Part shown: positions 2,826-40,725 of the stretch, piece after piece
Layout of the letters: each line of letters opens with the position of its first letter
How positions within the stretch are numbered: position 1 is the stretch's first letter
Program-made: the position numbers and the translations under genes
NCBI RefSeq assembly: GCF_027627575.1
Contig: NZ_CP114065.1
Coordinates: 3,410,001-3,474,000, forward strand
Length of the DNA: 64,000 nucleotides
Reading direction: 5' to 3'
From: Kribbella sp. CA-293567
GTDB lineage: Bacteria; Actinomycetota; Actinomycetes; Propionibacteriales; Kribbellaceae
The notes under the pieces: model-generated
Databases searched by the model: none
Told to the model about the DNA's origin: nothing
The model's input: only the letters and a program-made list of their open reading frames with translations

Positions 2826-4537
2826 CGCGCGGCTGCCGTCGCTGGGTCAGGGCCGGTCGCTGCGCCAAGGCCGGCGGCTGCGGCTTCCCGCGCGGCCAAC
2901 CGGTACCGCTGCGCCGTCTGCCGACCCAGTACCTCGTACACCGGGTCGAGCGCGTCGCTGCAGAACAGCTCGCGCATCAGGGTTCGCTGCACCCTTCCGG
3001 CGGTCCGCCTGATCCGCCCGGGGCGCAGGAACACCACGTTGGCGACCCGGACCTTGAACCGGTCCCGCAGCCCTTCCCGGACCGCTGCTCCGAGCGGAGC
3101 CAGCTCCGGAGCGACCATCCCGGGAGTGACCTCCTGGAAGACGACAAGCTGTTCCCGCGGTACGTCGACCGCGCACACGCACCCCGGCAGGTCCGCGAAC
3201 CGCGGATCGAGCCGGGCCAGCTCCCGCTCCACGTCCTCGGCGTACAGGCTGCGCTGGTCGATCCTGATCCGGTCGACGGCCGGACCCGTGGGCAGCAGTT
3301 GCCGGTCGTGGATCACCCCGAGATCACCAGTGGGAACGTCATCGTCCAGCCGGATCTCGCCGACCAGGCCGTCCGCGAGTTCGCGGCCCGTGGCCGGGTC
3401 CACGATCCGCAGGCCGGTGCCCTCGACCGGCCCGCAACTGACCAGCGGCACGCCGTCGGCAGCAGGCTGCAGGACGTCGTTCTCCAGGCCACCGCGATCG
3501 GCGACCGTCAGCAGCGGCCCGTCGATCCGGTCACCGGGGGGTGAGACCGTGATCAGCCGGACGCCGTCGGTCGGCCCGTACGCCGGGGTCAGCGTCCGCC
3601 GGTCCAGACCGGCCGGCGAGAAGTGCTCGGTGAACGCCGAGATCGTTGCCTCCGACACCTTTTCCGGACCGTTCAGCGCAGTCCGCAGCCGAGACAGATC
3701 AAGCGCCGGTACGTCGGCGGCCGCGACCCGGCGGACGCACAGGTCGTAGGCGAAGTTCGGTGCGGCCGTCAGCCGGACGTCGTGATCGTCGAGCATCCGC
3801 AGCCAGCGCACCGGATCCTTGAGGAAAGCAGACGGCGACATCAGCACACTGGTCGCTCCGACCGCCAGCGGCGCCAGCAGCAGGCCGACCAGCCCCAGCC
3901 CGTGGTGCATGGGCAGCCAGCCACCGACAGTCCCGTGCGCGGCCAGGTCGAGGGCCGCGTCGAGCCGGTCGACGTCGGCCGCAAGTGCCTGGTGGGAGAG
4001 CGAGTGGCCGGTCAGAGACGTCGCTGTGGCGGTGTACTGCAGCACCGCAGGCGCTGCGGCAGCTCGCTCGACGGGCTCGGAGGGCTGCACCTGCGACAGG
4101 TTGATCAGGTCGGTCGCGTAGAGGGCCAGCTCGTTCAGCCGGTCCTGGATCAGCCAGTCGGCGACCAGGTCCAGGTGCTCGGTGTCGGTCAGCACCACCC
4201 GGGGGTCGACGTCCAGCGCGATCCCCGTGGTCAGCGAGAGATGGTGGCTGTAGGTGCCGGGCAGGGGAGCGGGGACCGGGACGCAACCGGCGTACAGGCA
4301 ACCCCAGAAGGCCTGCGCGAAGGCCAGCGGTGACGGGTGCAGCAGGAGGACCCGGTCGCCGGGAGCAGTGTTGGCTCGCAGCCAGCCCGCGATCAGCCGT
4401 GCGCTGGCGTCCAGTTCGCCGTACGTGGCGGTGGTGGCGACCGGCTGCCCGGCCCGGTGGCCGACCTCGACCACTGCCGGCCGGGACGGGTCGTCGGCGA
4501 CCTGCCGTCCGAATCTGGCGACCAGATCCTCATTCAT
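2822..4537 (-). CDS. Fatty acyl-AMP ligase-like protein with degenerate ATP loop
   Basis: Adenylate-forming enzyme fold of 571 residues, paralogous to the ligase at 5397-7157: shared 'GDRVLLLHPS', 'FWGCLYAGCVPVPAPLPG', 'GWLPMHHGLGLVG', 'PNFAYDLCVRRV' and 'TPAYGPTDGVRL'. The phosphate-binding loop, 'FTSGSTSDPRG' in the paralogue, reads 'YTATATSLTGHS' here, so Gly, Ser and the basic residue are lost and ATP use is doubtful. I chose the ATG at 4537, preceded by GGAG at good spacing; the frame is open upstream but the extra residues do not resemble the family. It overlaps the next gene by 4 nt. It may be an acyl-binding or chaperone-like partner, or a decaying duplicate. Confidence 0.8.
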   Translation of the reverse strand: MNEDLVARFGRQVADDPSRPAVVEVGHRAGQPVATTATYGELDASARLIAGWLRANTAPGDRVLLLHPSPLAFAQAFWGCLYAGCVPVPAPLPGTYSHHLSLTTGIALDVDPRVVLTDTEHLDLVADWLIQDRLNELALYATDLINLSQVQPSEPVERAAAAPAVLQYTATATSLTGHSLSHQALAADVDRLDAALDLAAHGTVGGWLPMHHGLGLVGLLLAPLAVGATSVLMSPSAFLKDPVRWLRMLDDHDVRLTAAPNFAYDLCVRRVAAADVPALDLSRLRTALNGPEKVSEATISAFTEHFSPAGLDRRTLTPAYGPTDGVRLITVSPPGDRIDGPLLTVADRGGLENDVLQPAADGVPLVSCGPVEGTGLRIVDPATGRELADGLVGEIRLDDDVPTGDLGVIHDRQLLPTGPAVDRIRIDQRSLYAEDVERELARLDPRFADLPGCVCAVDVPREQLVVFQEVTPGMVAPELAPLGAAVREGLRDRFKVRVANVVFLRPGRIRRTAGRVQRTLMRELFCSDALDPVYEVLGRQTAQRYRLAAREAAAAGLGAATGPDPATAAAR

Positions 4538-4620
4538 CGTGGGCCACTCCATCCGCTCGGCCGATACTCGTCCCAGTGAGTATCGGCCGTACCAACGAGC
4601 TGCCGGCCCGGTTCGAGCTG

Positions 4621-5394
4621 TCAGGAAACGCCGGCTGCAAGTTGCTGCCAGCCGGTCGCGGACAGGGCCGTCCCGGGCCAGCTGATCTCCGCCGGCGGCA
4701 AGTCCGCCTGCCACGCCAAAGCTGCCAGGTCGGCAGAGCCAGTGGCCACGTCCTGAACAACCCAGGCGGGGGCGCCAACCAGGCTGTCGTGCGCCACAGT
4801 GACCGGCCTGTCTACGGCTGGCTGAACATCGATCTCCCGCAACGGCGCGACCAGGCCGATCCCGGCAGCCTTCAGCACGGCCTCCTTGCGGGTCCACGCC
4901 CGGAGAAACAGCCGACGGCGTCCGTGCTCGTCCAGCTGGGTCCGAAACGCAGTCAGCTCAGCCGGTGTCATCACCATCGGCGACACCAGCTCCAGGTCGA
5001 CCGCGTCGGCTCCTTCGAGGTCCACCCCGATCAGGCGGTCCGCGGAGACAGCCAGCAGCCAGTCGTTGCCCGACCTCGACAGGCTGAAGGTCAGCGGACT
5101 GTGCGGGCTCGCCAAGATCGGCGGCCCGTGGTCCGCGCTACCGCAGCCTGGACAAGCCTTCCGGTCGAGCACCAAGCGGCCCGGCTCCTCGTCGAGATAG
5201 CCGGCGAGGATTCGCCGGACAGCGGCCCGCGAACCGGCGTACCGGGCACCGGCCGCCGGGACCATCGCCCGGAAGCGAGCCAGTTCCGCGGTCGCCAGGA
5301 CGGCGAGCTCGGCCGGGTCCGCCGCCGCGGTGGCCCGGCCACGCCACAGGTGCACGCTGCCGCTGTCGGGTGGCCGGGGGAACCTGCTGGTCAT
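4621..5394 (-). CDS. Sfp-type 4'-phosphopantetheinyl transferase
   Basis: Transfers phosphopantetheine from CoA to the conserved Ser of carrier proteins; here the clients should be the ACP at 8921-9208 and the seven NRPS T domains. The 257-residue protein has the family metal and CoA motifs: 'IGVDLEGAD' (residues about 142-150) and 'FLRAWTRKEAVLKAAG' (about 185-200). A 'CPGCGSADHG' segment near residue 81 is typical of actinobacterial Sfp-type enzymes. Starts 2 nt after the stop of the ligase at 5397-7157, so it is in the lipid-loading operon. Its presence makes the cluster self-sufficient for carrier activation. Confidence 0.93.
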   Translation of the reverse strand: MTSRFPRPPDSGSVHLWRGRATAAADPAELAVLATAELARFRAMVPAAGARYAGSRAAVRRILAGYLDEEPGRLVLDRKACPGCGSADHGPPILASPHSPLTFSLSRSGNDWLLAVSADRLIGVDLEGADAVDLELVSPMVMTPAELTAFRTQLDEHGRRRLFLRAWTRKEAVLKAAGIGLVAPLREIDVQPAVDRPVTVAHDSLVGAPAWVVQDVATGSADLAALAWQADLPPAEISWPGTALSATGWQQLAAGVS

Positions 5395-5396
5395 GG

Positions 5397-7157
5397 TCAG
5401 ACGCCGGCCAGCTGATCGGTTGCCCGGTGCAACTTCTTGATCGACGGCTCCAGGTCCTCGAAGTGCGCCTGCAGGGCGTTGCCGAGGAACAGTTCGCGCA
5501 TCGTGGTGCGGCGGACCTTGCCGCTGGTGGTGCGCAGCACCGCGCCGCGCTTGACGAAGCAGACGTTCGCGACCGGTGTTCCGCCGTACTCGGACAGGTC
5601 GGTCTTGACGAGGTCGGCCAGCTCCTGCAGGTCCGTCGGCGCGGCAGCTCCCGCCGTCCGGATCTCCTGGACGACGACGATCCGCTCCGCGCCCTGCCCC
5701 GGTACGCCGAACGCTGCCGACGCGCCGTCGGCCAGAGCCGGGTGCAGCAGGCTGAGCCGGCGCTCGAGGTCCTGCGGGTAGATGTTGCGGCCGTTGACGA
5801 TGATGAGTTCCTTGATCCGGCCGGTGATGTAGAGGTCGCCTTCGTGGCAGACGCCCAGGTCCCCGGTCCGCAGGAACGGGCCCTCGTCAAGGCTGGTGTA
5901 GGCCTCGAACACCGCGGCGGTCTCGTCGGGGCGGCCCCAGTAGCCACGCGCCACACTCGGACCGCGCAGCCAGATCTCGCCGATCCGGCCGTCGGCCAGC
6001 ACGCTTCGGGTGCCGGGATCGACGATGCGCAGGTCGAAACCGGCCGGGACCGGGCCGCTGCTGACCAGGTCGCGGCTGCCTTCCTCCGCGTCGGTCCGGA
6101 TGAACTGACGGCGCTCGACCCCGGCCGCGTCGACGCGAACCGGCCGCGGCCGCTGGTGCTCCTCGGTCCCGGTGACCAGCAGTCCCACCTCGGCCATGCC
6201 GTAACACGGCCGCATCGAGCTCGGCTTCAGTCCGGCCGGCGCGAAGTGCCGCTCGAACCGGCGCAGCGTCGCCGGGTCCACCGGCTCGGCGCCGTTGAGC
6301 GCGTGCCGCCAGCGGGACAGGTCGAGCTGTTCGACCCGCTCCGGCTTCACCCGCCGGACACACAGGTCGTAGGCGAAGTTCGGCGCGGGGCTGATCTCGA
6401 CGCCGTGCTGGTCGATCAGATCCAGCCAGCGGAACGGCTCACGCAGGAAGCTCATCGGCGACATCAGCGACAGCGTGCCACCCAGGTACAGCGAGGTCAG
6501 CGGCCCGCCGATCAGGCCCATGTCGTGGTAGTGCGGCAGCCAGGTCGCGACCCGGGCACCGCGGGTCAGCGCGAACGTCTGCTCGATCAGGCCGAGGTTG
6601 TGCCACAGGCTCGCGTGCGACACCATCACGCCACGCGGGTCGCTGGTCGAGCCGGAGGTGAACTGCAGCAGCGCCAGGGTGTCCGGGGTGATCACCGGCT
6701 CGCGCCAGCCGTCGACGTCCGCGAGGGCCGCGGTGTCGGTGGCGACGATCGCCGTACCGGCGACCTCGTCGAGTTGCTCGGTGATCTCCGCCAGGTTCGC
6801 CTCGTCGGTGAGCAGCGCCGTACAGCCGGCCGCCCGCATGATCGCCTGCAGCCGGCCTGCTTTGCCGTCACTGCCCGGCAGGGGAGCGGGGACGGGGATC
6901 ATGCCGGCGTAGAGACAACCGAAGAACGCCTCCACGAAGGTCGTGCCGGGCGGGTAGAGGAGCAGCACCCGGTCGCCCGAGGTCCTTCGCTCCTGCAGCC
7001 AGGTGGCGATCCGGCGGGCCTGCAGGTCCAGCCCGCCGTAGGTCAGTTCGGTCCGGATCGCCGAGCCGGGTCCGTCCGGCAGGAACACGATGGCGGTCCG
7101 GTCGCCGATGCTCTGGGCGTGCTCCCGGACCGCGCGGAACAGGTTGTCGGTGTGCAT
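5397..7157 (-). CDS. Fatty acyl-AMP ligase (FAAL) for lipid starter
   Basis: 586 residues. Adenylates a fatty acid and passes it to an acyl carrier protein, as in lipopeptide initiation. The adenylation motifs are intact: 'LQFTSGSTSDPRGVMVSH' (residues about 160-177, ATP loop), 'WLPHYHDMGLIGG', 'RPCYGMAEVGLLVTG', 'GEIWLRGPSVARGYW' and 'FLRTGDLGVCHEGDLYITGR'. The His-rich 'HYHDMGLIG' and 'PNFAYDLCVRRV' segments are those of FAALs rather than CoA ligases. The start follows AAGGAG-like 'GAAGGAGCTTCACC'. It sits directly after the acyl-CoA dehydrogenase and ACP genes, matching the LipA/LipB/LipD logic of friulimicin-type clusters. Confidence 0.93.
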   Translation of the reverse strand: MHTDNLFRAVREHAQSIGDRTAIVFLPDGPGSAIRTELTYGGLDLQARRIATWLQERRTSGDRVLLLYPPGTTFVEAFFGCLYAGMIPVPAPLPGSDGKAGRLQAIMRAAGCTALLTDEANLAEITEQLDEVAGTAIVATDTAALADVDGWREPVITPDTLALLQFTSGSTSDPRGVMVSHASLWHNLGLIEQTFALTRGARVATWLPHYHDMGLIGGPLTSLYLGGTLSLMSPMSFLREPFRWLDLIDQHGVEISPAPNFAYDLCVRRVKPERVEQLDLSRWRHALNGAEPVDPATLRRFERHFAPAGLKPSSMRPCYGMAEVGLLVTGTEEHQRPRPVRVDAAGVERRQFIRTDAEEGSRDLVSSGPVPAGFDLRIVDPGTRSVLADGRIGEIWLRGPSVARGYWGRPDETAAVFEAYTSLDEGPFLRTGDLGVCHEGDLYITGRIKELIIVNGRNIYPQDLERRLSLLHPALADGASAAFGVPGQGAERIVVVQEIRTAGAAAPTDLQELADLVKTDLSEYGGTPVANVCFVKRGAVLRTTSGKVRRTTMRELFLGNALQAHFEDLEPSIKKLHRATDQLAGV

Positions 7158-7184
7158 GGTGAAGCTCCTTCGTACTGGGCAGAC

Positions 7185-8924
7185 TCAGGACTTGAGGTCC
7201 CCGCCGAGCTGCAACGGGACCAGGGAGAACAGCCGCTCCTCCTCCCAGCACCGCAGCATCTCGGCCTCCACGACGGCCAGGCTGCCGGCATCGAGCTGCT
7301 GGTCCGGCCGAAGCCTGGCTAGGATGCGCTGCAACGCCAGCACCACCCACTCCGGCCGCGCCACGAAACCGCCGTGGGCCCGGTTGGCGTTCCAGGTGTG
7401 CAGACAGGTCGCCGCCGCATGGACCAGGCAGTGCTGCCGGGCCAGCGTGAACGCGCGCGAACTCGACTTCAGATCGTTGCCCTGCTTGATCAGTTCCCGG
7501 GTGCCGTCGCGCAGCCTGTCCTGGACTTCGACGATCTGCTCGGCCGTACTGCGCAGCGTTCCGGCCGGCAGGGCGGCGACGACGGTGGGCAGGCTCTGGG
7601 TGATCTCGTCGAGCCCGCCGTTGGTGAGCTTGAACCGGTCGAACCGCAGGTCCCAGGCCGGTGGCTCCCAGGTGTGGTCGTGCAGGTCGGCCAGCAGTTG
7701 CCCGTCGTACGGGCTGCCGCCGAGCAGCGAGGGGAGCTGGGTCGCCACCACGTGCTGGTGGACGTGGCTGGTGCCCTCGAAGATGCTGACGATCCGGTTG
7801 TCCCGCAGGACCTTCTGGAAGATCCCGTCGTTCACGCCCTCGCGCAGGAAGTGGCGCGCGGCCAGCACCGCGCCGAGACTGTTCAGCACCTCGTCGATCA
7901 GGCCGGGGACCAGGTACTTCGTCACCGACGACCAGAGGCTGAGCCGTTCCGGTTTCACCGCGATCGCCCGCGCGGTCGGGGCCGAGGCGCACTCAGCGAT
8001 CAGCAGGTCGACGTACGCCGCCAGCACCTGCTCGCGGATCACCGGGATGTCGTGCACGGTCCGGCCGTACAGGTGCCGGTTGCGGATGTGGTCGAGCGTG
8101 GTGCGCAGACCGGTGTCGGCGACGCCGAGGGACATCGCGGTGACCAGCGTGCGGCTGACCTGGAGGGTCTTGATCGCCTCCTCCATCCCACGCCCCTTGC
8201 CGCCGATCAGCGCCGAGTCCGGCAGCGGGCAGGCGTCGAAGGTGAGCCCGGAGACGTCCGCGCCGCGCAGGCCGAGCGTCCGCACCTTCGGTCTCGTTGC
8301 CCAGCGCAACGGATCGAGTCGTTCCTTGTCCACCAGAAAGGCGGAGAAGGCCCGCGGCCCAGCGCTGCCGGTGCGGGCGAAGACGGTCGCGAAGGCGCTC
8401 CGGATGCCGTTGCCGATCGGCCACTTGCTGCCGCTCAGCAGGTACTGCGCACCGTCCTGCCCGGCGGCGACATCACCGGCCACCACATCGCAGCCGTGGT
8501 CCTCCTCGGACAGTCCGAACGCTCCGGCCGAGCCGCCCAGGATCAGCTCGGCCACCCGCCGGCGCTGCTCGTCGCTGCCCCAGCCCCAAACCGGCATCGC
8601 GCCGAGAAAGGTCGCGCCGGAGCTGAGCGCCGGGGTCATGTCCCGGCGGGCCAGGCTGCGGATCAGCGCGAACATCCGCTCCATGTCGTGGAACCGGCCA
8701 CCCTCGGCAGGCGGGACGTAGTGATGCGGATAGCCCCACTCGGCCAGCGCCTCGAACGCCGGCGCCGACAGCTCCTCGGCCTCGTCGTACTCCAGCTGGG
8801 TGGCGAACGAGATCCGGGAACCGCGCAGCCGCGGGTCACCCAGGAAGCGCTCGAACTCCTCGGTGGTGCCGTGGACCGAGCTCCGCCCCTGGAGCGGTCC
8901 GGTCAGCAGGCCGGCGGCGTTCAC
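7185..8924 (-). CDS. Acyl-CoA (acyl-ACP) dehydrogenase
   Basis: 579-residue flavin dehydrogenase, the intact member of three paralogues in this operon. It has the flavin/substrate segments 'AFGLSEEDHGCDV' and 'LSGSKWPIGNG' in the middle domain, 'RHLYGRTVHDIPVIREQV' and the catalytic-Glu region 'RIVSIFEGTSHVHQHVV'. I take the GTG at 8924, which overlaps the stop of the ACP gene by 4 nt (GTGA); the frame extends further upstream but only as the antisense-like reading of the ACP gene. Likely introduces a double bond into the ACP-bound acyl chain before transfer to the peptide synthetase; that substrate is inferred from the neighbouring ACP and FAAL genes. Confidence 0.9.
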   Translation of the reverse strand: MNAAGLLTGPLQGRSSVHGTTEEFERFLGDPRLRGSRISFATQLEYDEAEELSAPAFEALAEWGYPHHYVPPAEGGRFHDMERMFALIRSLARRDMTPALSSGATFLGAMPVWGWGSDEQRRRVAELILGGSAGAFGLSEEDHGCDVVAGDVAAGQDGAQYLLSGSKWPIGNGIRSAFATVFARTGSAGPRAFSAFLVDKERLDPLRWATRPKVRTLGLRGADVSGLTFDACPLPDSALIGGKGRGMEEAIKTLQVSRTLVTAMSLGVADTGLRTTLDHIRNRHLYGRTVHDIPVIREQVLAAYVDLLIAECASAPTARAIAVKPERLSLWSSVTKYLVPGLIDEVLNSLGAVLAARHFLREGVNDGIFQKVLRDNRIVSIFEGTSHVHQHVVATQLPSLLGGSPYDGQLLADLHDHTWEPPAWDLRFDRFKLTNGGLDEITQSLPTVVAALPAGTLRSTAEQIVEVQDRLRDGTRELIKQGNDLKSSSRAFTLARQHCLVHAAATCLHTWNANRAHGGFVARPEWVVLALQRILARLRPDQQLDAGSLAVVEAEMLRCWEEERLFSLVPLQLGGDLKS

Positions 8925-9208
8925 GCCGCGGTTTCGGTCGCGAGCTGCTCGGAGATCAGCGCGATCGTCGGGTAGGACCAGGCCAGGTGGTCCGGCACGT
9001 GCGTGCCCAGCCACTCCTCCAGCTCGGCCACCAACTCCATCGCGTGCACCGAGTCGACACCGATCGAGGCGAGCGGGGCGGTCGGGTCGACCTCGTCCGG
9101 CGTGACCCCGATCATCCGGGACACCCGGCCGCGGAGGAACTCGGTGAGCTCGGCGCTGGTGATCGCCCGGCCGGTGGCGGGGCTGTCTCCTACCTGTGAC
9201 ACGTCCAT
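8921..9208 (-). CDS. Acyl carrier protein
   Basis: 95-residue carrier with the phosphopantetheine site 'SIGVDSVHAMEL', attachment Ser at residue 53. Single-domain, so it is the discrete acceptor for the acyl-AMP made by the FAAL, and the substrate carrier for the dehydrogenase whose start overlaps its stop. AAGGAG lies about 12 nt before the ATG. First gene of the leftward operon, facing the diaminopropionate genes across a 225-bp intergenic region. Donor role to the first C domain of the synthetase (probably that of NRPS3) is inference. Confidence 0.93.
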   Translation of the reverse strand: MDVSQVGDSPATGRAITSAELTEFLRGRVSRMIGVTPDEVDPTAPLASIGVDSVHAMELVAELEEWLGTHVPDHLAWSYPTIALISEQLATETAA

Positions 9209-9433: not shown

Positions 9434-10450
9434 GTGGTGGCGGAGATGACGCGACAAGTGCTCCCGAGCATTCTCGAGAGCATCGGTGACACTCCTCTGG
9501 TCGAACTGGGGAAGGTGTTCACCGGTTTCGGTTCGCGGGTCTTCGCGAAGCTGGAACGGTTCAACCCCAGCGGCAGCATCAAGGACCGGACGGCGTACAG
9601 CATGGTGCGGGCGGCGCTGACCTCGGGCGAGCTGGTGCCCGGCCGGTCGGTGGTGGTCGAGTCGAGCTCGGGCAACCTGGCGATCGGGCTGGCCCAGATC
9701 TGCCGGTACTTCGGGCTGCGCTTCATCTGTGTGGTGGACGCGAACACGACCGACCGGAACCTGGCCATCCTGGACGCGTTCAAGGTCGAGGTCGAGGTGG
9801 TGACCGAACCCGACGCGATCGGCGGCCTGCTCGGCGCCCGGCAGCGCCGGGTCCGGGAACTGGCCGCCACCGTCCCCGACGCCTACTGGCCGAACCAGTA
9901 CGCCAACCCGATGAACCCGCGCGCGCACATCCAGACGATGCGGGAGATCGAGGAGGCCCTGCACGGCCGGGTCGACTACTTGTTCGCGTCGGTGAGCACG
10001 TTCGGCACCCTGCGCGGCTGTGTGGACCACGTCCGCGACCAGGGGATGCCGACCAGGGTGGTCGGGGTCGATGCCGTCGGCAGCGTCATCTTCGGCGGCT
10101 CGCCCGCGCCGCGGCTGCTGCCCGGGCACGGCGCCTCGGTCCGCCCCGCGCTGGCCGACCTGTCGCTGGTGGACGAGGTCGTGCACGTCTCGGACCTGGA
10201 GGCGGTGGCGTCCTGCCGCCGGCTGCTGATGACCGAGGCGATCCTGGCCGGTGGTTCGTCCGGCGCGACGCTGGCGGCGCTGGAGAAGCTGTCCGCCGGG
10301 ATCCCGGCCGGCTCGAACGTGGTGCTGATCTTCCCCGACGGCGGGGATCGCTACGTCGACACGGTGTACTCCGACGCCTGGGTCCGGCGGATGTTCGGTG
10401 ATGTGTCCCATCTGTGGAAGGAACCCTTCGAAATGAGCATCCCGGTATGA
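9434..10450 (+). CDS. sbnA: SbnA-type N-(2-amino-2-carboxyethyl)-L-glutamate synthase
   Basis: PLP enzyme of the cysteine synthase fold, 338 residues. SbnA condenses O-phospho-L-serine with glutamate as the first step to L-2,3-diaminopropionate (Dap). The PLP lysine is K50 in 'NPSGSIKDRTAYSM', followed by the 'ESSSGNLAIGLAQIC' and 'GGSSGATLAAL' loops that cradle substrate and phosphate. The C-terminus runs into SbnB with an ATGA overlap, the usual sbnA-sbnB pairing. I use the GTG at 9434, preceded by GAAGG; an ATG at 9446 is an alternative. VioB/VioK of viomycin are the same kind of pair. Supplies Dap to the synthetases. Confidence 0.9.
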   Translation: MVAEMTRQVLPSILESIGDTPLVELGKVFTGFGSRVFAKLERFNPSGSIKDRTAYSMVRAALTSGELVPGRSVVVESSSGNLAIGLAQICRYFGLRFICVVDANTTDRNLAILDAFKVEVEVVTEPDAIGGLLGARQRRVRELAATVPDAYWPNQYANPMNPRAHIQTMREIEEALHGRVDYLFASVSTFGTLRGCVDHVRDQGMPTRVVGVDAVGSVIFGGSPAPRLLPGHGASVRPALADLSLVDEVVHVSDLEAVASCRRLLMTEAILAGGSSGATLAALEKLSAGIPAGSNVVLIFPDGGDRYVDTVYSDAWVRRMFGDVSHLWKEPFEMSIPV

Positions 10451-11433
10451 TCGTTCTCGGCTACAAGGACGTCCAGCAGGTGCTGTCCGGCACCGAGACC
10501 GAGACCCTCGAGGTGGTCCGGTCGGCGTACCGGCTGCACGACGAGGGCCGCTCGGCCGTGCCGCACTCGGTCTTCCTGCGATTCCCCGGCGACCACCGCA
10601 ACCGCATCATCGGCCTGCCCGCCTTCGCCGGCGGCGACCGGCCGGTCGCGGGGATGAAGTGGATCGCCTCGTTCCCCGGCAATGTCGAGCGCGGACTGGA
10701 GCGGGCGAGTGCCGCCATCCTGCTGAACTCGCTGGAGACCGGTCATCCCGAGGCGCTGATCGAGGGCTCGCAGATCTCTGCCCGGCGGACCGCCGCCAGT
10801 GCCGCCGTCGCGGCGCAGGAGCTGGTCATCGAACCGCCGGCCGGAGTCACCCTGGTCGGGGCCGGGGTGATCAACCTGGAGATCTTCCGCTTCCTCACCG
10901 TCGCCCTGCCCAGCATCGAGCGGTTGACGGTCTTCGACACCGATCGGTCGCGGGCCGAGTCGTTCATCGCGAAGTGCCAGGAGATCAAGCAGGTCGCGGC
11001 ACAGGCGGCCGACTCGCTCGACGCGGCGCTGGCGGCCCAGCCGCTGGTCAGCTTCGCCACCACGGCGATCGAGCCGCACACGGACCTGTCGGCCTGCCGG
11101 CCGGGCACCGTGGTGCTGCACATCTCGCTACGAGACCTCCACCCGGAAGCGATCGTTGCCGCCCGCAACATCGTGGACGACGCCGACCATGTCTGCCGGG
11201 AAGGCACCTCGCTGTTCCTGGCCGAGCAGCAGACCGGCGGCCGCGAGTTCATCGACGCGCCGATCGGCGCGCTGCTGCGGGGCACCGCGAAGCTGCAGCG
11301 GCGGCCGGACGAGCTCGTCGTCTACTCGCCGTTCGGTCTCGGCGTGCTGGACATGGCGCTGGCCGACCACGTCCGGGTCGTCGCGGAGCAGCGCGGTCTC
11401 GGCGCCACCTTCGACGGCTTCGTGCCGTCCTGA
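10447..11433 (+). CDS. sbnB: SbnB-type N-(2-amino-2-carboxyethyl)-L-glutamate dehydrogenase
   Basis: 328-residue member of the ornithine cyclodeaminase/mu-crystallin family. SbnB oxidatively cleaves the SbnA product with NAD to give L-2,3-diaminopropionate and 2-oxoglutarate. The NAD-binding loop 'VTLVGAGVINLEIFRFL' and the substrate region 'AGMKWIASFPGN' are visible. The ATG at 10447 overlaps the stop of sbnA (ATGA), so I reject the open extension further upstream. Together with SbnA and the carbamoyltransferase at 25679-26611 this suggests a Dap or ureido-Dap building block. Confidence 0.9.
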   Translation: MIVLGYKDVQQVLSGTETETLEVVRSAYRLHDEGRSAVPHSVFLRFPGDHRNRIIGLPAFAGGDRPVAGMKWIASFPGNVERGLERASAAILLNSLETGHPEALIEGSQISARRTAASAAVAAQELVIEPPAGVTLVGAGVINLEIFRFLTVALPSIERLTVFDTDRSRAESFIAKCQEIKQVAAQAADSLDAALAAQPLVSFATTAIEPHTDLSACRPGTVVLHISLRDLHPEAIVAARNIVDDADHVCREGTSLFLAEQQTGGREFIDAPIGALLRGTAKLQRRPDELVVYSPFGLGVLDMALADHVRVVAEQRGLGATFDGFVPS

Positions 11434-11725: not shown

Positions 11726-16617
<4,892 letters not shown>

Positions 16618-16618
<1 letters not shown>

Positions 16619-19600
16619 TGTCCACCACTGACGCCCGGGAAGAACTGCTGCGCCGCCGGCTGGCGGGGGCACTGGGAGGCCGCCGATCGACGATCGCCCC
16701 GGCGGACCGGAGCAAGCCGCTGCCGCTGTCGTTCGGCCAGCAACAGATGTGGTTCCTGAACCGGCTGGACACCGGCAGCCCGGAGTACCTGCTGCCTGCC
16801 GCGCTGCGGATGCGCGGTCCGCTCGATCTCGACGCGCTCCGCCGGTCGTGGGGTGAACTGCTGGCCCGGCACGAGATCCTCCGCACCCGGTACGAACTCC
16901 GTGCCGGTGAGCCGGTCCAGCTGGTCGACTCCGCGAGCGATCAGGGCCGGGGCAACGAACTGCGGGTGGTCGAGCTCGGCGACGGACCGTCACGCGAGGC
17001 GGCGCTCGGCGAGGTACTGCGGGAGCAGACCAGCACCGGCTTCGACCTGGAGACGCAGTGGCCTGCCCGGGCGACGCTGGTGCGCGTGGCGGCCGACGAT
17101 CACCTGCTGATCGTCGTACTGCATCACATCGCCGGTGACGCGTGGTCGACCGAGTTGCTGTCCGCCGAGCTGAGTGAGCTGTACGGCGCGCACTCGGCCG
17201 GGGTCACCCCGTCGCTGGAAGAGCTCCCCCTGCAGTACGCCGACTTCGCCGCCTGGCAGCGCGATCAGGACCTGGCGGCGGAGCTGGAGTGGTGGCGCGA
17301 GCAGCTGGCCGGAATCCGTCCGGTCGAACTGCCGGCCGATCGGCCCCGGTCCGCCGTCCGGAGCAACGCCGGCGCGGATCTGCCCTTCGTCCTGCCGGAC
17401 GGTCTCGCCGACCAGGTCCGCATCCTGGCCGGCAAGTTCGGTACGACGCCGTTCGTGGTGATGCTGACGGCGTACCAGCTGATGCTGACGAGGTACACGG
17501 GTGAGCAGGACGTTGCCGTCGGCACCGTTGTGTCCGGCCGGACCCGGCCGGAGCTGCAGCGGTTGATCGGCTACGGCATCAACAGCCTGGTGATCCGGAC
17601 CCGCTGGACCGGTGACCCCACTTTCGCCGACCTCGTGCGGCAGACCCATGCCCGGGTACTGGACGCGCACGACCACCAGACGGTGCCGTTCGCCAAGCTG
17701 GTCGACGAACTGCAGCCGGAGCGGGACATGTCGCGCTCGCCGCTGTTCCAGGTGGCCTTCGTCGTGCGGCAGGCCCAGCCGGACGCGTTCGCGTTGGGCG
17801 AGCTGGTCGCCGAGCCGGTACCGACCGGCTTCACCGTGGCCAAGTTCGACCTGAACCTGAAGCTGACCGAGACGCCGGACGGTGCTCTGGACGGCGTCCT
17901 GACCTACGCGACGGCGCTCTTCGACGAGTCCACCGCGCGCCGGCTGTCGGCGCACTTCGTCCGGCTGCTGGCCGAAGGCGTCGCCGAGCCCGATCGGCCA
18001 CAGTCGGCCCTGGAGATGTTCGGCCCGGCCGAGCTGGCCGAACTCACCGACGTCTTCGCCACCGGTGAGGAACTGGAGGTCACCGCGCCGGTGCACGAGC
18101 AGGTCGCTCGCCGGACCCCGAACGCGCTCGCGATCGTGGACGGTGCGAACCGGCTGACCTACGGCGAGCTGAACGCGCGGGCCAACCGGCTGGCCAGGTT
18201 CCTCGTGGACGAGGGTGTCGGGCCGGAGTCGCGGGTGGCCGTCGCGATTCCCCGTTCGGCCGACCTGGTGGTCGCCGTGCTGGCGGTGCTGAAGGCCGGT
18301 GCGGCGTACGTGCCGGTCGATCCGGAGTACCCGGCGGAGCGGAACGCCTACATTCTCGAGGACTCCGACCCGGAGCTGATCCTGGTCTCCGGTTCGGCGA
18401 CCCAGGGGCTGCCGGCAACGAGTGCGCCGGCCGTGGCGGTCGACTACCCGGCCAGGTTCGCGAGCTACCCGGACACCGAACCGGGGATCACGGCCGAACC
18501 CGGCAATCCGGCGTACCTGATCTACACCTCGGGGTCGACGGGCCGGCCGAAGGGCGTCGTGGTCGAGCACCGGCAGCTGTCCGGATACCTGGCCTGGTGC
18601 GCCGCTGAGTACGACGGACTGGCCGGCTCGTCGCTGCTGCACTCCTCCGTGTCGTTCGACCTGACGGTCAACGCGCTGTGGGGTCCACTGGTCCTCGGCG
18701 GTCACGTGGTGATCGGCGCGCTCGACGGCAGCCAGCCAGCGCCGGAGGTGGCGCCGACGTTCGTCAAGGTGACCCCGAGCCATCTGCCCTTCCTGGTCGA
18801 GCTGCCGGACGAGTTCTCGCCGACCGGCGTACTGATGACCGGTGGCGAGGCACTGACCGGTGACTCGGTCGATGCGTGGCGGGCCAAGCACCCGGGCGTC
18901 ACGGTGATCAACGAGTACGGCCCGACGGAGACCACGGTCGGCTGTACGGCGCTGCGGATCGAGCCGGACGACGCGCTGCCTTCGGGCGGTCTGCCGATCG
19001 GCAAGCCGATGCCGAACTCCAGCATCTTCGTACTGGACGCGTTCCTGCGTCCCACGCCCGTCGGTGTGGTCGGCGAGCTCTACGTCGCCGGCGACTGCGT
19101 CACCCGGGGTTACCTGAACCGGCCGGACCTGACCGCGGCGAAGTACGTCGCCTGTCCGTGGCTGCCGGGGGAGCGGATGTACCGGACCGGCGACCTCGCC
19201 GCCTGGGACGTGGACGGCACGCTGACCTGCCCGAGCCGGGTAGACAACCAGGTGAAGATCCACGGGTACCGGATCGAGCTCGGCGAGATCGAGAGCACGC
19301 TGCTGCGCCACCCCGCGGTCGGTCAGGCGATCGTCGTCGCGCGCGACACCGCCCACGGCGACAAGCGGCTGGTCGCGTACGTCGTCACGGCCGGCGAACT
19401 CGACCAGGCCGCACTGCGCGCCCAGCTGCAGGAGTGGCTGCCGGAGTACATGGTGCCGTCGGCGATCGTCGGCCTGGACGCGATTCCGCTGACCGACAAC
19501 GGCAAGACCGACCTGCGGGCACTGCCCGAACCAGGGATCGCGCCGGTGGACGCCGACCACACCGTGACGGCACGCACCACCACCGAGGAGCAGCTGGCCG

Positions 19601-22600
19601 AGGTCTGGGCGAAGGTGCTCGGGCGGACCGAGATCGACGTCCACACAAGCTTCTTCGAGCTCGGCGGCGACTCGCTGAGCGCGGTGGCCGTGGTCGGCGC
19701 GCTGCGCGAAACCGGCGTGGACGTGGCGGTGTGGGACGTCTTCGAGTACCGCACGGTGGCCGCGCTGGCGGAGAAGCTGACCGGCCGCGAGGTGCGGGAA
19801 GAGACGTTCGTCGCGCCTTTCGGGCTGATCTCCGCCGACGACCGCGACGCACTGCCGGCCGGTGTCACCGACGCCTATCCGTTGTCGCAGGCGCAGACCG
19901 GCATGGTGGCAGAGATGCTGGCCGGCGCGGACGAGGCGCACTACCACAACACGACCTCGCACCGGATCCTCGACGATCAGCCGTTCGACCTGACAGCCAT
20001 GCAGGCCGCCGCCGCGCTACTGGTCGAACGGCACCAGAACCTGCGCACCTCGATCGACCTGGGCACCTACTCACGCCCGCTCCAACTGGTGCACTCGTCC
20101 GCCGTGCTGCCGGTCGGCGTCACCGCGCTCGGTGACGCCGATCTCGACCAGGCACTGCGCGCCTACCGCGCGGCCGAGCGGTCGCGGCCGTTCGACCTGT
20201 CGTCACCCGCGCTGCTGCGTTTCCACGTGCACACGACGAATCAGACCGACTCCTGGTGGCTCACCAGCACCGAATGCCATGCCGTGTCGGAGGGCTGGAG
20301 CTATCACTCGTTGCTGATGGAACTGGTGACCACCTACCGCGCGATCCGGGCCGGTCAGCGGCCGGCGGGCCACGAGGCTCCGAAGGTCCGGTACGCCGAC
20401 TTCATCGCCGGCGAGCTCGAATCGCTGGCCTCGGCTGAGGACAAGGCCTACTGGCTGGACATCGCCACCGGGTATCCCGCCGGTGAACTGCCGGCCGGCT
20501 GGGGCGAGGACGGCGAACCCCACGCGCTGTACGCCGGTGCGCGGGCGATCGACCTCGAGGACGGGCTGCGGGCCCTCGCTGCCGCGGCCGACGCCTCGCT
20601 CAAGTCCGTGATGCTGGCGGCCCACGTCAAGGTGATGAGCCTGCTGAGCGCGGAGACGGCCTTCACCACCGGCCTGGTCTGCGACGCCCGGCCGGAGGCG
20701 GCCGGCGCCGACAAGGTGCACGGCATGTACCTCAACACGCTGCCGTTCGCGGTCGAGCGGGGCGCGCGAACCTGGCGCGAACTGGTCGAGCAGACCTTCG
20801 CCCGCGAGCTGGAGCTGTGGCCGCACCGGCGCTACCCGATGCCGCAGATCCAGCGGGACGCGGGCCGCCGGCTGATCAACATCTTCTTCAACTACCAGGA
20901 CTTCCGGCAGCTCGACGACGACCTGATCGACCCGTACGCCGGGGAGACCTACGAGTCGCTCGACGACCTGCCGGTGGTGGCGTCCCGGCGTACCAGCCTG
21001 CAGAACGAGAGCATCACCGAAGTACCGCTGACGGTGTCGTCCCGCGGTGGCTACGTGATCCTGACGGCCGACTCCCGGGTGATCAGCAAGGACAACGCCG
21101 AGCGGCTGGCCGGAATCTACCGTTCGGTGCTGGAGGCGATGGCGGCCGACCCCGACGGCGATGCCCAGCTGTCGCACCTGCCGGCCGGCGAGCTGGACCT
21201 GGTGCTGCGGCAGTTCGCCGAGGGACCGGTACGGGCCGGATCGCCGGCGCTGCTGCCGGACCTGATCGCCGAGTCGGTGGTCAGGGCGCCGGACAGGACC
21301 GCAGTACTTGCCGAAGGCATCGAGCTGACGTACGCCGGACTGGACCAGCGGGCGAACCGCCTGGCCAGGCTGCTGATCGCCAAGGGGGTCGGCCCCGAGT
21401 CGCGGGTCGCCGTCGCGCTGCCACGCTCGGTCGAGCTGATCGTCGCGCTGCTCGCGGTGGTGAAGGCGGGCGGTGCGTACGTACCGATCGACCCCGAGAA
21501 CCCGGTCGATCGCGTCGGCTTCGTGCTCACCGACTCGGATCCGGTGCTGTTGCTGACCACCGCCGACCTGCTGGACCGGTTGCCGGTGGGGGAGGTGCCC
21601 CTGCTGGTCCTGAACGCCGAGACGGCGGCCGATCAGGCGGGCGAGCCGGTGACCGACGCGGACCGCTCGGCGCCGCTGCGCCGGGAGAACGCGATCTACA
21701 CCATCTACACCTCGGGCTCGACCGGCCGGCCGAAGGGCGCGGTACTGGAGCACCGTCAGGTGGCCAACTATCTGGCCTGGTGCGCCGACCACTGTGAGGG
21801 GCTGGCGACGTCCTCGTTGCTGCACTCGTCGGCGTCCTTCGACCTGACCGTGAACGCTCTCTGGGGCCCGCTGACGCTGGGTGGCACGGTGATCCTGGGC
21901 GCGCTGGACGGGACCGAGGAGCAGCCGTTGACCAAGCCCGGCTTCGTCAAGGTCACGCCGAGCCACCTCACGATGCTGACCGAACTGTCACCGGACTGGT
22001 CGCCGTCACTGCAGCTGATGACCGGGGGAGAGCCCCTGCTGGGCGAGGTCGCTCAGGCTTGGCGGTCCGCCCACCCTGAGGTTGCCCTCATCAACGAGTA
22101 CGGCCCGACCGAGACCACCGTCGCGGTCACCGCGCTCACCTACCGGCCCGGCGACCCGTTGCCGGACGGACCGGTCACGATCGGCCGGCCGATGACGAAC
22201 CTGCGGATCTACGTGCTGGACGGCAACCTGCAGCCGGCGCCGATCGGCGTCGTCGGTGAGCTGTACGTCGCCGGACCACAGGTTGCCCGCGGCTACCACA
22301 GCCGGCCGGACCTGTCGGCGTCGTCCTTCGTCGCCTGCCCGTGGGGGCCGCCCGGCGAGCGGATGTACCGCACCGGAGATCTGGCCGCGTGGAACCCGGA
22401 CGGCACCCTCACCTGCCCCGGCCGGGCCGACGACCAGGTCAAGATCCACGGCTACCGGATCGAGCTCGGCGAGGTGGAGACCACCATCCTGCGGTACCAC
22501 GCCGTCGGGCACGCGACCGTGATCGCCAGGGAGGACCGCCCCGGCGACCGCAAACTGGTCGCGTACGTCGTCCCCTCCGCCCCGCTCGACCTGGACGAGC

Positions 22601-25600
22601 TCCGCGACGCGGTGGCCGGATGGCTGCCGGAGTACATGGTTCCCTCGGCCTTCGTCGAGCTGACTGCCCTGCCGTTGACAGCCAGTGGCAAGCTCGATCG
22701 CGCGGCACTGCCGGCCCCGGACTACACAGCCGTCGAAACCGAGTACGTCGTACCGCGGACCGCTGTGGAGCAGCAGATCGCCGCGGTCTGGCGCAAGGCG
22801 CTGGCGGTCGACCGGGTCGGTGCCTTCGACAGCTTCTTCGACCTCGGTGGTGACTCGATCAGCGCCGTCTCCGTGGTCGGTGGACTGCGCCGGGCCGGTC
22901 TCGACGCGGGCGTGAAGGACGTCTTCGAACTGCGCACGGTGGCCGCGCTGGCGGAGCGGCTGACCGGCCGTCCGGTCGCCGCTGCGGAGACCTCGGTGCA
23001 GCCGTTCGCCCTGATCAGCTCCGGGGACCGGGCGTTGCTGCCGGCCGGCGTAGCCGACGCGTACCCGCTGTCCGAGGCACAGACCGGGATGATGGTCGAG
23101 TTGCTCTCGACGGAGGTCCCGCGGAGTTACCACAACGTCGTCTCGACCCGCCTGACCGACGAGAAGCCCTTGTCCGTCGAGGCTCTGCGGCAGGCGCTCG
23201 CGCTGCTGATCGAGCGTCACGAAGTACTGCGGACCGGGGTCGACCTGGAAACCTACTCGGTCCCGATGCAGCTGGTGCACGCCGCCGCGGAGGTGCCGCT
23301 GACGGTGGTCGACCTGACCGGGCTGCCGCCGGCGATCCAGCGGCAGGCGCTGGCCGGCTTCCAGACCGAGGAGCAGGCGACCCACTTCGATCACCGTACG
23401 CCGCCGCTGCTGCGCTTCGCCGTACACCAGCTCGACGAGCACAGCTGGCAGGCCACGGTGACCCAGAACCACGTGATCCTGGAAGGCTGGAGCCACCACG
23501 CCCTGGTGATGGAACTGCTCGACTACTACGGCCGGTTCCGTGACGGCTTGCCACAAGAGCCGTGGGAGCAGCCGCCGGTCCGCTTCGCCGACGCCATCGC
23601 CGGTGAACTGGCGGCGCTGCAGTCCGCGGAGGACCGCGCGTACTGGGCGGAGGTCGCCGCTCTGCCGAAGTTCACCATCCCGGCCGGCTGGAATGGTGAC
23701 GCCGCGGGCGAGCGGACGGCGTACCGGGTGGAGGTGCCGTACGCCGACCTGGAGCCGAGGCTGCGGGTAGTTGCCACGGAGTCGCAGGCCTCGCTGAAGA
23801 GCGTCCTCTTCGCCGCGCATCTGGCGGTCCTCAGTTCGCTGACCGACCATCAAGAATTCCACAGCGGGCTGACCAGTCACATCCGCCCGGCCGTCGAGGG
23901 CGCGGAGCGCGTCTACGGCATGCACCTGAACATGCTGCCGGTGCCGATGCGGCGTACGCCGGGCAGCTGGCGTGAACTGGTCACGCAAACCTTCGCCGCC
24001 GAGGGAGACCTCTGGCCGCACCGGTTCTTCCCGATGCCGGTGATCCAGCGGGAGCTGAGTCAGGAACGGCGTCTGCTCGACGTCTTCTTCAGCTTCCAGG
24101 ACTACAGCTCACTGACTGCCCGCGGCGACGGGTTCGGAGTCGAAGGCCTGGACGACAGTGTCGCCAGCGGAACCACGGAGTTCCCGCTGTCGGTGGCGAC
24201 CGGCCCTGGCTACCTGGTCGTGCGCTCCAACACCCGGGCACTCGACCGGACGGCGGCCGACCGGCTGGCGTCGATGTACCGCACGGCGCTCGAGGCGATC
24301 GTGGCAAACCCGGAGTCCCGGTGGGACACCTGCGAACTGCTGCCTGCCGACGAACGCCCCGGCCTGAGCCAGGCACCGGCCGAGCCGGCCGAGCGCACGT
24401 TCGAACCGCCGCGGACCGAGACCGAGCGGATCCTGGCCAAGATCTGGGCGAAGCTGCTCGACCTGCCGCGGGTCGGCCGCCACGACCGGTTCTTCGAGCT
24501 CGGCGGCTACTCCATGCTGCTGGTGAAGACGGTCTCGAAGGCGAAGGCGAAGGGCCTGCCGCTGTCGCTGTTCATGTACTACGACAGCGACCGCCTCGAC
24601 CACCTCGCCCTTGCGGTGGACGCCGCCCTCGCCGCCGAGCGTGGCGACGGACCGGCCGCCTGGTACGGTCCAGGCGCCGATCTGTTGCCAGAGGCAATGG
24701 ATGAGCTGGCAGTGCCAGGAGCCGTCGTGGCACTGCTGGAGCACGGCGAGCTGACCGAGATCCGGGCCCTCGGCAGGGTTTCCGCGGACACCGCCGAGCC
24801 GGTGACGGCCGACACGCTCTTCACGGTTGCCTCGGTGAGCAAGCTGGTCACCGCGGTCGGCGCGCTGAAGCTGGTCGACGACGGACAGCTCGATCTGGAC
24901 GAGGACATCCACCGGTACCTGACCAGCTGGGAGGTTCCCGGCCGGCCGCGGGTCACGCTGCGGCAACTGCTGGGCCATCGATCCGGCTTCACGGTCTCAC
25001 CCGGCGGCGGTGTCGCGCCTGGACAGCAGGTGCCCACGCTCCTCGATCTGCTGCACGGGCGGGGAGCCGCCACGAACGAACCGATCCGTTGCGATCGCCC
25101 ACCGGGTGAGGCGTTCGTGAAGGCCGGAGCGAACTTCGTCGTCCTGCAGCAGCTGATCGAGGACGTCACCGGCAGGCCGTTCGCCACCGCTGCCCGGCGG
25201 CTGGTGCTCGACCCGCTGGGCATGACCGCCTCCAGCTACGACCCCGCCTTCCCGATCACCGCGGGCAAACCCGTTGCCCTCGGCCACCTCGCCGACGGGC
25301 CGCTCGAAGGAGGCTGGCGGATCCGGGCCGACGCGGCGTCGGGCGGGCTGTGGACCACGGCAGGAGATCTCGCCACGCTCACTCTCGAGATCCGCCGCTC
25401 GTACCTGGGCCGGCCGCGGGCGCTGCTGTCCCAGCCGGTCGCGCGGCAGATGCTGACGCCCTCCGGCGACGGCTCGTTCGGTCTCGGCGCGACCGCCGAA
25501 CAGAACGGCGACGACGTCCAGTTCGGCCATGGGGGCGAACCCCGCGGGTACTACGCCGGAACCATCTGCCGGGTCACCTCCGGCCACGGCTTCGTCCTGC

Positions 25601-25665
25601 TGGCGAACGCCACCGCAGGCAAGAACCTCGCCCAGGGGCTGGCCGGCCGCCTGGCTTCCGCTTAG
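16618..25665 (+). CDS. Nonribosomal peptide synthetase 2 (C-A-T-C-A-T-C-T-serine hydrolase)
   Basis: 3015 residues. C1 about 35-460 has 'HHIAGDAW' (final Gly of HHxxxDG is Ala); A1 about 476-975, code DLNKMGEVGK; T1 Ser near 1019; C2 about 1085-1530 with 'CHAVSEGWS'; A2 about 1544-2035, code DLNKMGEVAK; T2 Ser near 2080; C3 about 2147-2570 with 'NHVILEGWS'; T3 Ser near 2632 in '[10 protein letters not shown]'; then, from about 2690, a beta-lactamase/penicillin-binding-protein fold with 'SVSK' (S2739, K2742) and a late 'HGGEPRG'. Both A codes resemble the Asn code. C3-T3 has no A domain. The last domain is likely the chain-release enzyme, like SurE-type PBP thioesterases, but fused in cis. The expected Tyr-x-Asn motif is not seen ('FVKAGANF'). 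Confidence 0.95.
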
Positions 25666-25678
25666 GTAGGAGACCCCG

Positions 25679-26611
25679 ATGACCGCTCGACACCTGATCT
25701 CGACCGACGACCTGACCGACGAGGAACTGCGCTACGTCGTCGACCGCGGCGACGAGTTCTCGTCCGGCCGGGCGGTGCTCGACCGGCCGCTGGCCGGCCA
25801 GCTCGCCGGCATCTACTTCCGCAAGACCTCGACCCGGACCCGGACCGCGTTCTCGGCGGGCGCGCTGAAGCTCGGCGCCCAGATCATCGCCTACGGGCCC
25901 GACGACCTGCAGCTGAACACCGGCGAGACCACCGAGGACACCGGCCGGGTGTTCTCCCGGATGCTCGACGTCCTGGTCGCCCGGACCTCCGGCGACCCGG
26001 CCGAGCTGCGCGGCTGGGCCGCGCAGGACCGGATGTCGGTGGTCAACGCGATGAGCGCGCTGGAGCATCCGACCCAGGCGGTCACCGACCTGGTCACGCT
26101 GCAACGCCGGTTCGGCAAGATCGAACAACTCCGGGTGCTGTACGTCGGGGAGGGCAACAACTCGGCCGCGTCGATCGCACTGGCCATCACCCGCTACCCG
26201 GGGGTGCACCTGGAGCTGCGCACCCCGGCCGGGTACGGGCTCGACCCCGACGTTGCCGCGCGGGCGGCGGCGCATGCGGAACGCTGCGGTTCGACGCTGG
26301 TCGAGCGGCACGACATGGCCGACCTGCCGCCGAACCTCGACGCGATCTACACCACCCGCTGGCAGACCACCGGAACCGCCAAGCCGGACCCGAACTGGCG
26401 CGACGTCTTCGCGCCGTTCCAGGTGACGGCGGCGTTGTGGCAGGACCACCCGCGGGCCGTCTTCCTGCACGACCTGCCGGCGCACCGCGGCGAAGAGGTC
26501 ACCGGCGAGGTACTGGACGGCCCGGCCAGCATCGCCTTCGACCAGGCGGAGAACAAACTGCACGGCGCGATGGCCGTACTGGACTGGTGCCGTCGTGGGA
26601 TCACGAGTTGA
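25679..26611 (+). CDS. Carbamoyltransferase (ornithine/aspartate carbamoyltransferase family)
   Basis: 310 residues. Transfers a carbamoyl group from carbamoyl phosphate to an amine. The carbamoyl phosphate site 'STRTRT' is at residues 51-56 and 'HPTQ' near 127. The ornithine-type 'HCLP' motif reads 'HDLPAHRGEEV' here, replacing Cys with Asp, so the acceptor is probably not ornithine. Located 13 nt after NRPS2 behind 'TAGGAGACC', inside the cluster. With SbnA/SbnB it parallels VioL of viomycin, which makes the ureido group from a Dap-derived residue; a 3-ureidoalanine unit is the likely product, by inference. A housekeeping argF is less likely given the context and the motif change. Confidence 0.85.
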   Translation: MTARHLISTDDLTDEELRYVVDRGDEFSSGRAVLDRPLAGQLAGIYFRKTSTRTRTAFSAGALKLGAQIIAYGPDDLQLNTGETTEDTGRVFSRMLDVLVARTSGDPAELRGWAAQDRMSVVNAMSALEHPTQAVTDLVTLQRRFGKIEQLRVLYVGEGNNSAASIALAITRYPGVHLELRTPAGYGLDPDVAARAAAHAERCGSTLVERHDMADLPPNLDAIYTTRWQTTGTAKPDPNWRDVFAPFQVTAALWQDHPRAVFLHDLPAHRGEEVTGEVLDGPASIAFDQAENKLHGAMAVLDWCRRGITS

Positions 26612-29895: not shown

Positions 29896-30633
29896 GTGAG
29901 CTGGTTCCGTACCTACCTTTCCCGCCCCGCCGCGGAACTCCGGCTGGTGTGTTTCCCGCATGCCGGCGGAGCCGCCAGCGCGTACCGCGAGTGGGCCGCG
30001 CTACTGCCCGAACAGATCGAACTGGTCGCGGTGCAGTACCCCGGCCGCCAGGACCGGTACCACGAGGAGCCGCTGACGGACTTCGCCGACCTGGTCGAGG
30101 GCGTCGCGGCGGAGCTGCCGCAACTCGAGGGCCCGACCGCGTACTTCGGCCACAGCATGGGCGCGACGGTCGCGTTCGAGGCCGCGCGCCGGCTCTCCGT
30201 CGTCGGCCGTGGCCCGGAGCGGTTGTTCGCCTCCGCCCGGATCGCGCCGGCCGTGGCCACCAGGACCGGGCTGAGCTTCGACGACGAGGACGAGGTGATG
30301 ACCTACATCCGCGACCTCGGCGGAGCCGGTGGTCAGCTGCTGGAGATCCCCGAGCTGCGCCAGCTGGCGCTGCCGATGCTGCGCGCGGACTTCCAGCTGA
30401 TGGAGTCCTACGTGTACCACCCGGGCGTCCGGCTGGACTGCCCGATCACCGTGCTGGCCGGGTCGGAGGACCACACCTTCGGTGTCGGCGACGCGGCCGA
30501 GTGGGGCCGGCACACCACCGCCGGCCTCACGGTCGAGGAACTGCCCGGCGGCCACTTCTACACCGAGCAGGTGCCCGGACAGGTCACCGAGCTGATCACC
30601 CGAACCGTCATCTCCGAGGGAGTACACCCGTGA
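29896..30633 (+). CDS. Type II thioesterase
   Basis: 245-residue alpha/beta hydrolase of the GrsT/RifR family. Nucleophile Ser in '[16 protein letters not shown]', early '[17 protein letters not shown]' oxyanion region, acid in 'LAGSEDHTF' and catalytic His in '[10 protein letters not shown]'. Removes mis-loaded acyl or aminoacyl groups from carrier domains. GTG start 3 nt after the oxygenase stop; its TGA overlaps the GTG of the following mbtH-like gene. As the only stand-alone thioesterase in the cluster it complements, rather than replaces, the fused release domain of NRPS2. Confidence 0.94.

Positions 30634-30909: not shown

Positions 30910-40725
<9,816 letters not shown>

Follow-up and report, generated by a model that had tools for sequence, protein, structure and literature searches.

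The C-terminal domain of NRPS2 from Kribbella sp. CA-293567 is a putative cis-acting Ser/Lys acyl-transfer release domain of the S12/PF00144 fold, and probably frees the finished chain by hydrolysis or by side-chain macrolactamisation. It falls in a recurrent group of actinobacterial domains, apparently not described before, from which the customary catalytic Tyr has been lost and in which Lys mostly takes its place. The release reading rests on the modelled fold, motif positions, conservation, position in the protein, purifying selection, recurrence and phylogeny; within it, we infer the order of assembly, acylation of the N-terminus, a covalent mechanism and the terminating nucleophile. All coordinates refer to the 64,000-nucleotide stretch of contig NZ_CP114065.1 that was analyzed (the window).

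16618-25665, plus strand: NRPS2, C-A-T-C-A-T-C-T-BL, 3015 aa (ORF and domain search)
24379-24582, plus strand: last T (carrier) domain, phosphopantetheine Ser2632 (LGGYSM), limits set by hand
24682-25623, plus strand: PBP/beta-lactamase-fold (BL) domain (PF00144), residues 2689-3002 (profile and fold)
24832-24843, plus strand: SxxK motif, Ser2739 and Lys2742 (sequence; invariant in a 40-row alignment)
25120-25128, plus strand: KAG (Lys2835, Gly2837) replacing YxN (alignment)
25528-25536, plus strand: HGG motif, His2971 (sequence; His invariant in the 40-row alignment)

The NRPS2 ORF is unbroken in the Kribbella window, and its ~320 C-terminal residues, directly C-terminal to the last T domain, match PF00144 with 154.7 bits (Pfam cut-off 27), bearing out the first-pass annotation of a PBP/beta-lactamase fold fused to the end of NRPS2. 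The motifs it had named, S2739-V-S-K2742 and H2971-G-G, were both located in the BL domain, and their Ser, Lys and His are invariant across the 40 aligned domains. It had also read FVKAGANF where Tyr-x-Asn was expected; this segment spans residues 2833-2840, and in residue-by-residue alignment with 7SPN and 2QMI, K2835 indeed coincides with the Tyr and G2837 with the Asn. Its statement that no alpha/beta-hydrolase TE is present holds for NRPS2, within which the domain search found neither such a TE nor any other release domain, but not for the neighborhood, where a discrete PF00975 TE lies at 29896-30633. By domain order NRPS2 has no E domain before the BL domain. A lipocalin domain is not present at the NRPS2 C-terminus, and there is no space for one, since the protein stops 44 residues past His2971. 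The terminal Kribbella module (~23035-24582) is C-T-BL without an A domain, and the Streptomyces relatives are C-A-T-BL.

The predicted structure of the BL domain (AlphaFold2, pLDDT 93.5) matches IS11, 2QMI, the R61 DD-peptidase, SurE and AmpC at Z scores of 34-38, and the domain thus resembles S12 enzymes in the structural alignment that had been proposed as a check on its fold; weak or missing structure matches were excluded as evidence. Profile match and fold together place it in S12/PF00144, and this membership stands with an incomplete S12 motif set (SxxK, YxN, KTG-like HxG), in which SxxK and HGG are present and YxN reads KAG. The best matches in both fold and sequence are the IS11 esterase (7SPN) and a Pyrococcus PBP homologue (2QMI), which differ in being discrete enzymes with the motifs YNN and YLN, respectively. 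The Streptomyces R61 DD-peptidase (1CEF, 1HVB) and class C beta-lactamases share the S12 fold and SxxK, but keep Tyr-x-Asn and work outside any assembly line; where class C enzymes have Tyr150-x-Asn and KTG, NRPS2 has KAG and HGG.

Among enzymes of NRPS lines without a fused alpha/beta TE, SurE (6KSU; Z 34.9, 29% identity) and Ulm16 (8FEK) have the S12 fold, SxxK and HxG in common with the NRPS2 domain. SurE types are stand-alone, have a lipocalin domain at the C-terminus and take substrates that end in a D-residue or Gly, and their catalytic set is listed as Ser, Lys, His and Asn (PMC11735501). The NRPS2 domain, in contrast, is fused within a 3015-aa ORF instead of acting in trans, follows no E domain, has no lipocalin domain and lacks the Tyr and Asn; of the SurE-type set, Ser, Lys and His are there and the Asn position is Gly2837. 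On the features tested, it resembles SurE in its fold and probably in its chemistry, without being a SurE-type TE. Fused type I alpha/beta TEs, such as that of locus G497, sit in the same place at the NRPS C-terminus and have probably the same job, but are unrelated in fold and catalytic residues. The structure entry 8KEM, judging from its title ('PKS domains-fused AmpC EC2'), likewise holds an AmpC fold fused to synthase domains, although to those of a PKS rather than an NRPS and at 20% identity to the NRPS2 domain.

Five other Kribbella genomes have the same fusion at 79-92% identity, always in one ORF and with KAG unaltered. In pairwise comparisons of the window with four orthologs, dN/dS of the BL domain was 0.08-0.19. 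These values lie among those of the NRPS2 C and A domains and show that purifying selection acts on it as on these neighbors; together with the invariant Ser, Lys and His, they rule out decay. The fusion was found in 6 of 38 Kribbella genomes. A T-BL profile matched 19 of 295 Streptomyces genomes, of which 17 hold 21 places in frames of 822-6820 aa and are counted as having the fusion (17/295), the other two matches lying in frames of 459 and 356 aa at contig edges. Among 394 genomes sampled across the class, the fusion turned up in three more Streptomyces and in a single genome from another family (G1114, frame of 1540 aa). In a phylum-wide sample (396 genomes, 237 genera), fused matches came only from the window's genome and one Streptomyces, with the remaining matches in frames of 454-552 aa; since the profile was made from fused domains, distant fusions may be missed in these counts. 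In Kribbella, Streptomyces and the one further family, the BL domain is always at the extreme C-terminus after T (or T-E), and in named annotated records the fusion is a single CDS. The HMM search suggested in the first-pass annotation recovered the architecture in all three groups, and its occurrence in many Streptomyces genomes besides the six of Kribbella rules out chance or a frameshift artefact as the source of the fusion. The annotation had called a cis fusion unusual: the fusion is real, and PBP-type thioesterases are presented as stand-alone in two reviews from 2024 (PMC11735501, PMC10999997), but it is a recurrent clade rather than a one-off.

In a BL-domain tree built with the motif columns left out, 26 fused domains formed one clade (100/98), none with Tyr; the position is Lys in 22, Val in two (L104a, L121), Ser in one (L071) and Leu in one (L105). 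Since no member of the clade has it, a single change on the tree accounts for the loss of the Tyr. The fused state is also one change, L104b being, by its annotation, the end of the second NRPS of Streptomyces sp. NBC_01244 and so fused. Four fused domains that keep Tyr (L072, L073, L077 and L123) group at 97/97 and are placed, weakly supported (85/48), as sisters of the 26-member clade; an E domain precedes three of them, and L123 comes directly after T. Discrete Kribbella relatives (~41% identity) retain the Tyr and extend ~100 residues further. SurE was placed with IS11 (92/93), apart from the fused domains, as the sole SurE row and on a long branch.

These groupings may reflect a separate, single-origin family of cis PBP-fold NRPS release domains in which the Tyr base was lost once, mostly to Lys, together with a shift from a D- to a non-D C-terminal residue and from head-to-tail to other release chemistry; we offer this scenario tentatively, as plausible but short of probable. 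The earlier suggestion that the catalytic base was replaced or lost can be narrowed, with replacement fitting better given Lys in 22 of 26 domains and purifying selection. Judged from the alignment, Lys2835 probably does part of the work of the S12 Tyr, as a proton relay or an acyl-enzyme contact, but is not essential in all clade members, four of which carry Val, Ser or Leu. A second kind of fused BL domain was observed in the Streptomyces loci L100, L101 and L102, behind an E domain and with Tyr kept (YSS, HTG), which might be a cis counterpart of the SurE logic. The NBC_01244 plasmid (L104, NZ_CP108489.1 234516-272476) carries two NRPS genes a few genes apart, both ending in a fused BL domain, of the VSN and KSN types.

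The remainder of the cluster is laid out as follows:

1368-9208, minus strand: divergent acyl-starter set of two acyl-CoA-dehydrogenase-like and two FAAL-like proteins, a PPTase and an ACP
9434-11433, plus strand: SbnA and SbnB homologs (diaminopropionate supply), both above curated cut-offs
11726-16618, plus strand: NRPS1, A-T-C-A-T, beginning with A (domain search)
25679-26611, plus strand: ornithine/aspartate-carbamoyltransferase-like enzyme, adjoining the BL domain in most Lys-type clusters
29896-30633, plus strand: discrete alpha/beta TE (PF00975), likely type II, the rival release enzyme
30919-40725, plus strand: NRPS3, C-(truncated A)-A-T-C-A-T-E-C, ending in C, predicted to act before NRPS1

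With a C domain at the end of NRPS3 and an A domain at the start of NRPS1, the assembly order would be NRPS3, NRPS1, NRPS2, which makes NRPS2 last and sets the BL domain at the end of a predicted lipopeptide line with abundant (carbamoyl-)diaminopropionate. Diaminopropionate is predicted from SbnA and SbnB, its possible carbamoylation from the carbamoyltransferase, and an acyl starter from the FAAL, ACP and acyl-CoA-dehydrogenase set. Lys-type domains mostly come after [C-A-T] modules with HxxxEGW in their C domains, and most of their clusters have the adjoining carbamoyltransferase followed by MFS, TauD, PPTase and TE genes; the carbamoyltransferase was not seen in the stretch read for L090, L091, L093, L095-L098, L105 and L128. 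Many Streptomyces relatives have the module 4 code DLPKVAEVGK in their terminal module as well. As product kin for diaminopropionate plus an acyl chain, enamidonins and kutzneridine were weighed and not adopted, and a mandimycin-like lead (an S. rimosus depsipeptide) proved unrelated.

Several features of the line were noted in passing. In the last two modules of NRPS2, the C domains (~19840-21207 and 23035-24370) have HxxxEGW rather than HHxxxDG and may be modified-residue C domains, perhaps dehydrating ones; the best PDB matches of the second are AmbE (7R9X) and McyA (8JBR). Residues 460-775 of NRPS3 (~32287-33234) are a truncated A domain with the Ser-like code DVWHFSLIDK, which ends after motif A5 and runs directly into a full A domain with the Asn-like code DLTKLGEVGK; the truncation is retained in the three Kribbella orthologs read. 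The second FAAL-like protein (2822-4552) is possibly degenerate, with an AMP-binding match of 131.6 bits compared to 227.7 for the first.

In the proposed release reaction, the finished acyl-peptide would move from Ser2632 of the last T domain to Ser2739, with Lys2742 as the base, His2971 of HGG lining the site, and Lys2835 as the relay or contact at the S12 Tyr position. Exit by water would give a linear acid, and exit by a side-chain nucleophile, for instance a diaminopropionate beta-amine, a macrolactam. Because the N-terminus is predicted to carry an acyl group, head-to-tail closure, to our knowledge the only chemistry of SurE-type enzymes, is unlikely. In favor of release are the PF00144/S12 fold, the invariant Ser, Lys and His, the dN/dS values, the C-terminal place, the last position of NRPS2 by domain order, and the canonical alpha/beta TE at the corresponding end of G497, a locus with a related C domain. 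The A-less terminal Kribbella module counts against it, since its T has no A domain of the module to load it.

The absence of the Tyr and Asn of YxN, residues important in most S12 enzymes, also speaks against release and is what one would expect if the BL domain were dead and structural and the chain were freed by the discrete TE (29896-30633) or another enzyme. A TE gene is present in this cluster and in many relatives, and the related NRPS of G741 stops at a T domain that nothing follows. However, Ser, Lys and His would hardly stay invariant in such a domain, purifying selection on it is no weaker than on the C and A domains, and discrete TEs of this kind are usually type II proofreading enzymes; we consider this explanation distinctly unlikely. 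An active domain with another job, such as peptide transfer to a different acceptor, trimming or proofreading, would suit a fold that spans peptidases, amidases, esterases and acyltransferases, several of which bind D-substrates, but fits poorly with the strict position after the last T and an NRPS2 that offers no alternative for release, and is unlikely. A SurE-type thioesterase that became fused and still performs head-to-tail macrolactamisation appears highly improbable: fold, SxxK and HxG are common to both, and three of the four Tyr-keeping sister domains come after an E domain, as SurE-like substrates would lead one to expect, but the placement of SurE on the tree, the missing lipocalin and E domains, the lost Tyr and Asn and the predicted acylated N-terminus all argue against it.

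In the open-access literature, to which the search was confined, we found neither a description of a fused PBP-type TE nor a product assigned to such clusters; a PKS-fused AmpC is already known from the title of 8KEM. If the release reading is right, a cis-fused clade in ~6% of the sampled Streptomyces would amount to a second type of integral release domain, which searches for alpha/beta TE domains overlook. It would make S12 acyl transfer without the Tyr of YxN testable, could be a source of new catalysts for release or cyclisation, and points to a family of lipopeptide clusters rich in diaminopropionate. A further PBP-like stretch was observed just behind the fused NRPS in L096 (~10815-11285) and L091 (~9544-10014), with RIGGVTK and QQITRAN; as its SxxK Ser is changed to Gly and the Tyr is gone, it is probably a catalytically dead homolog.
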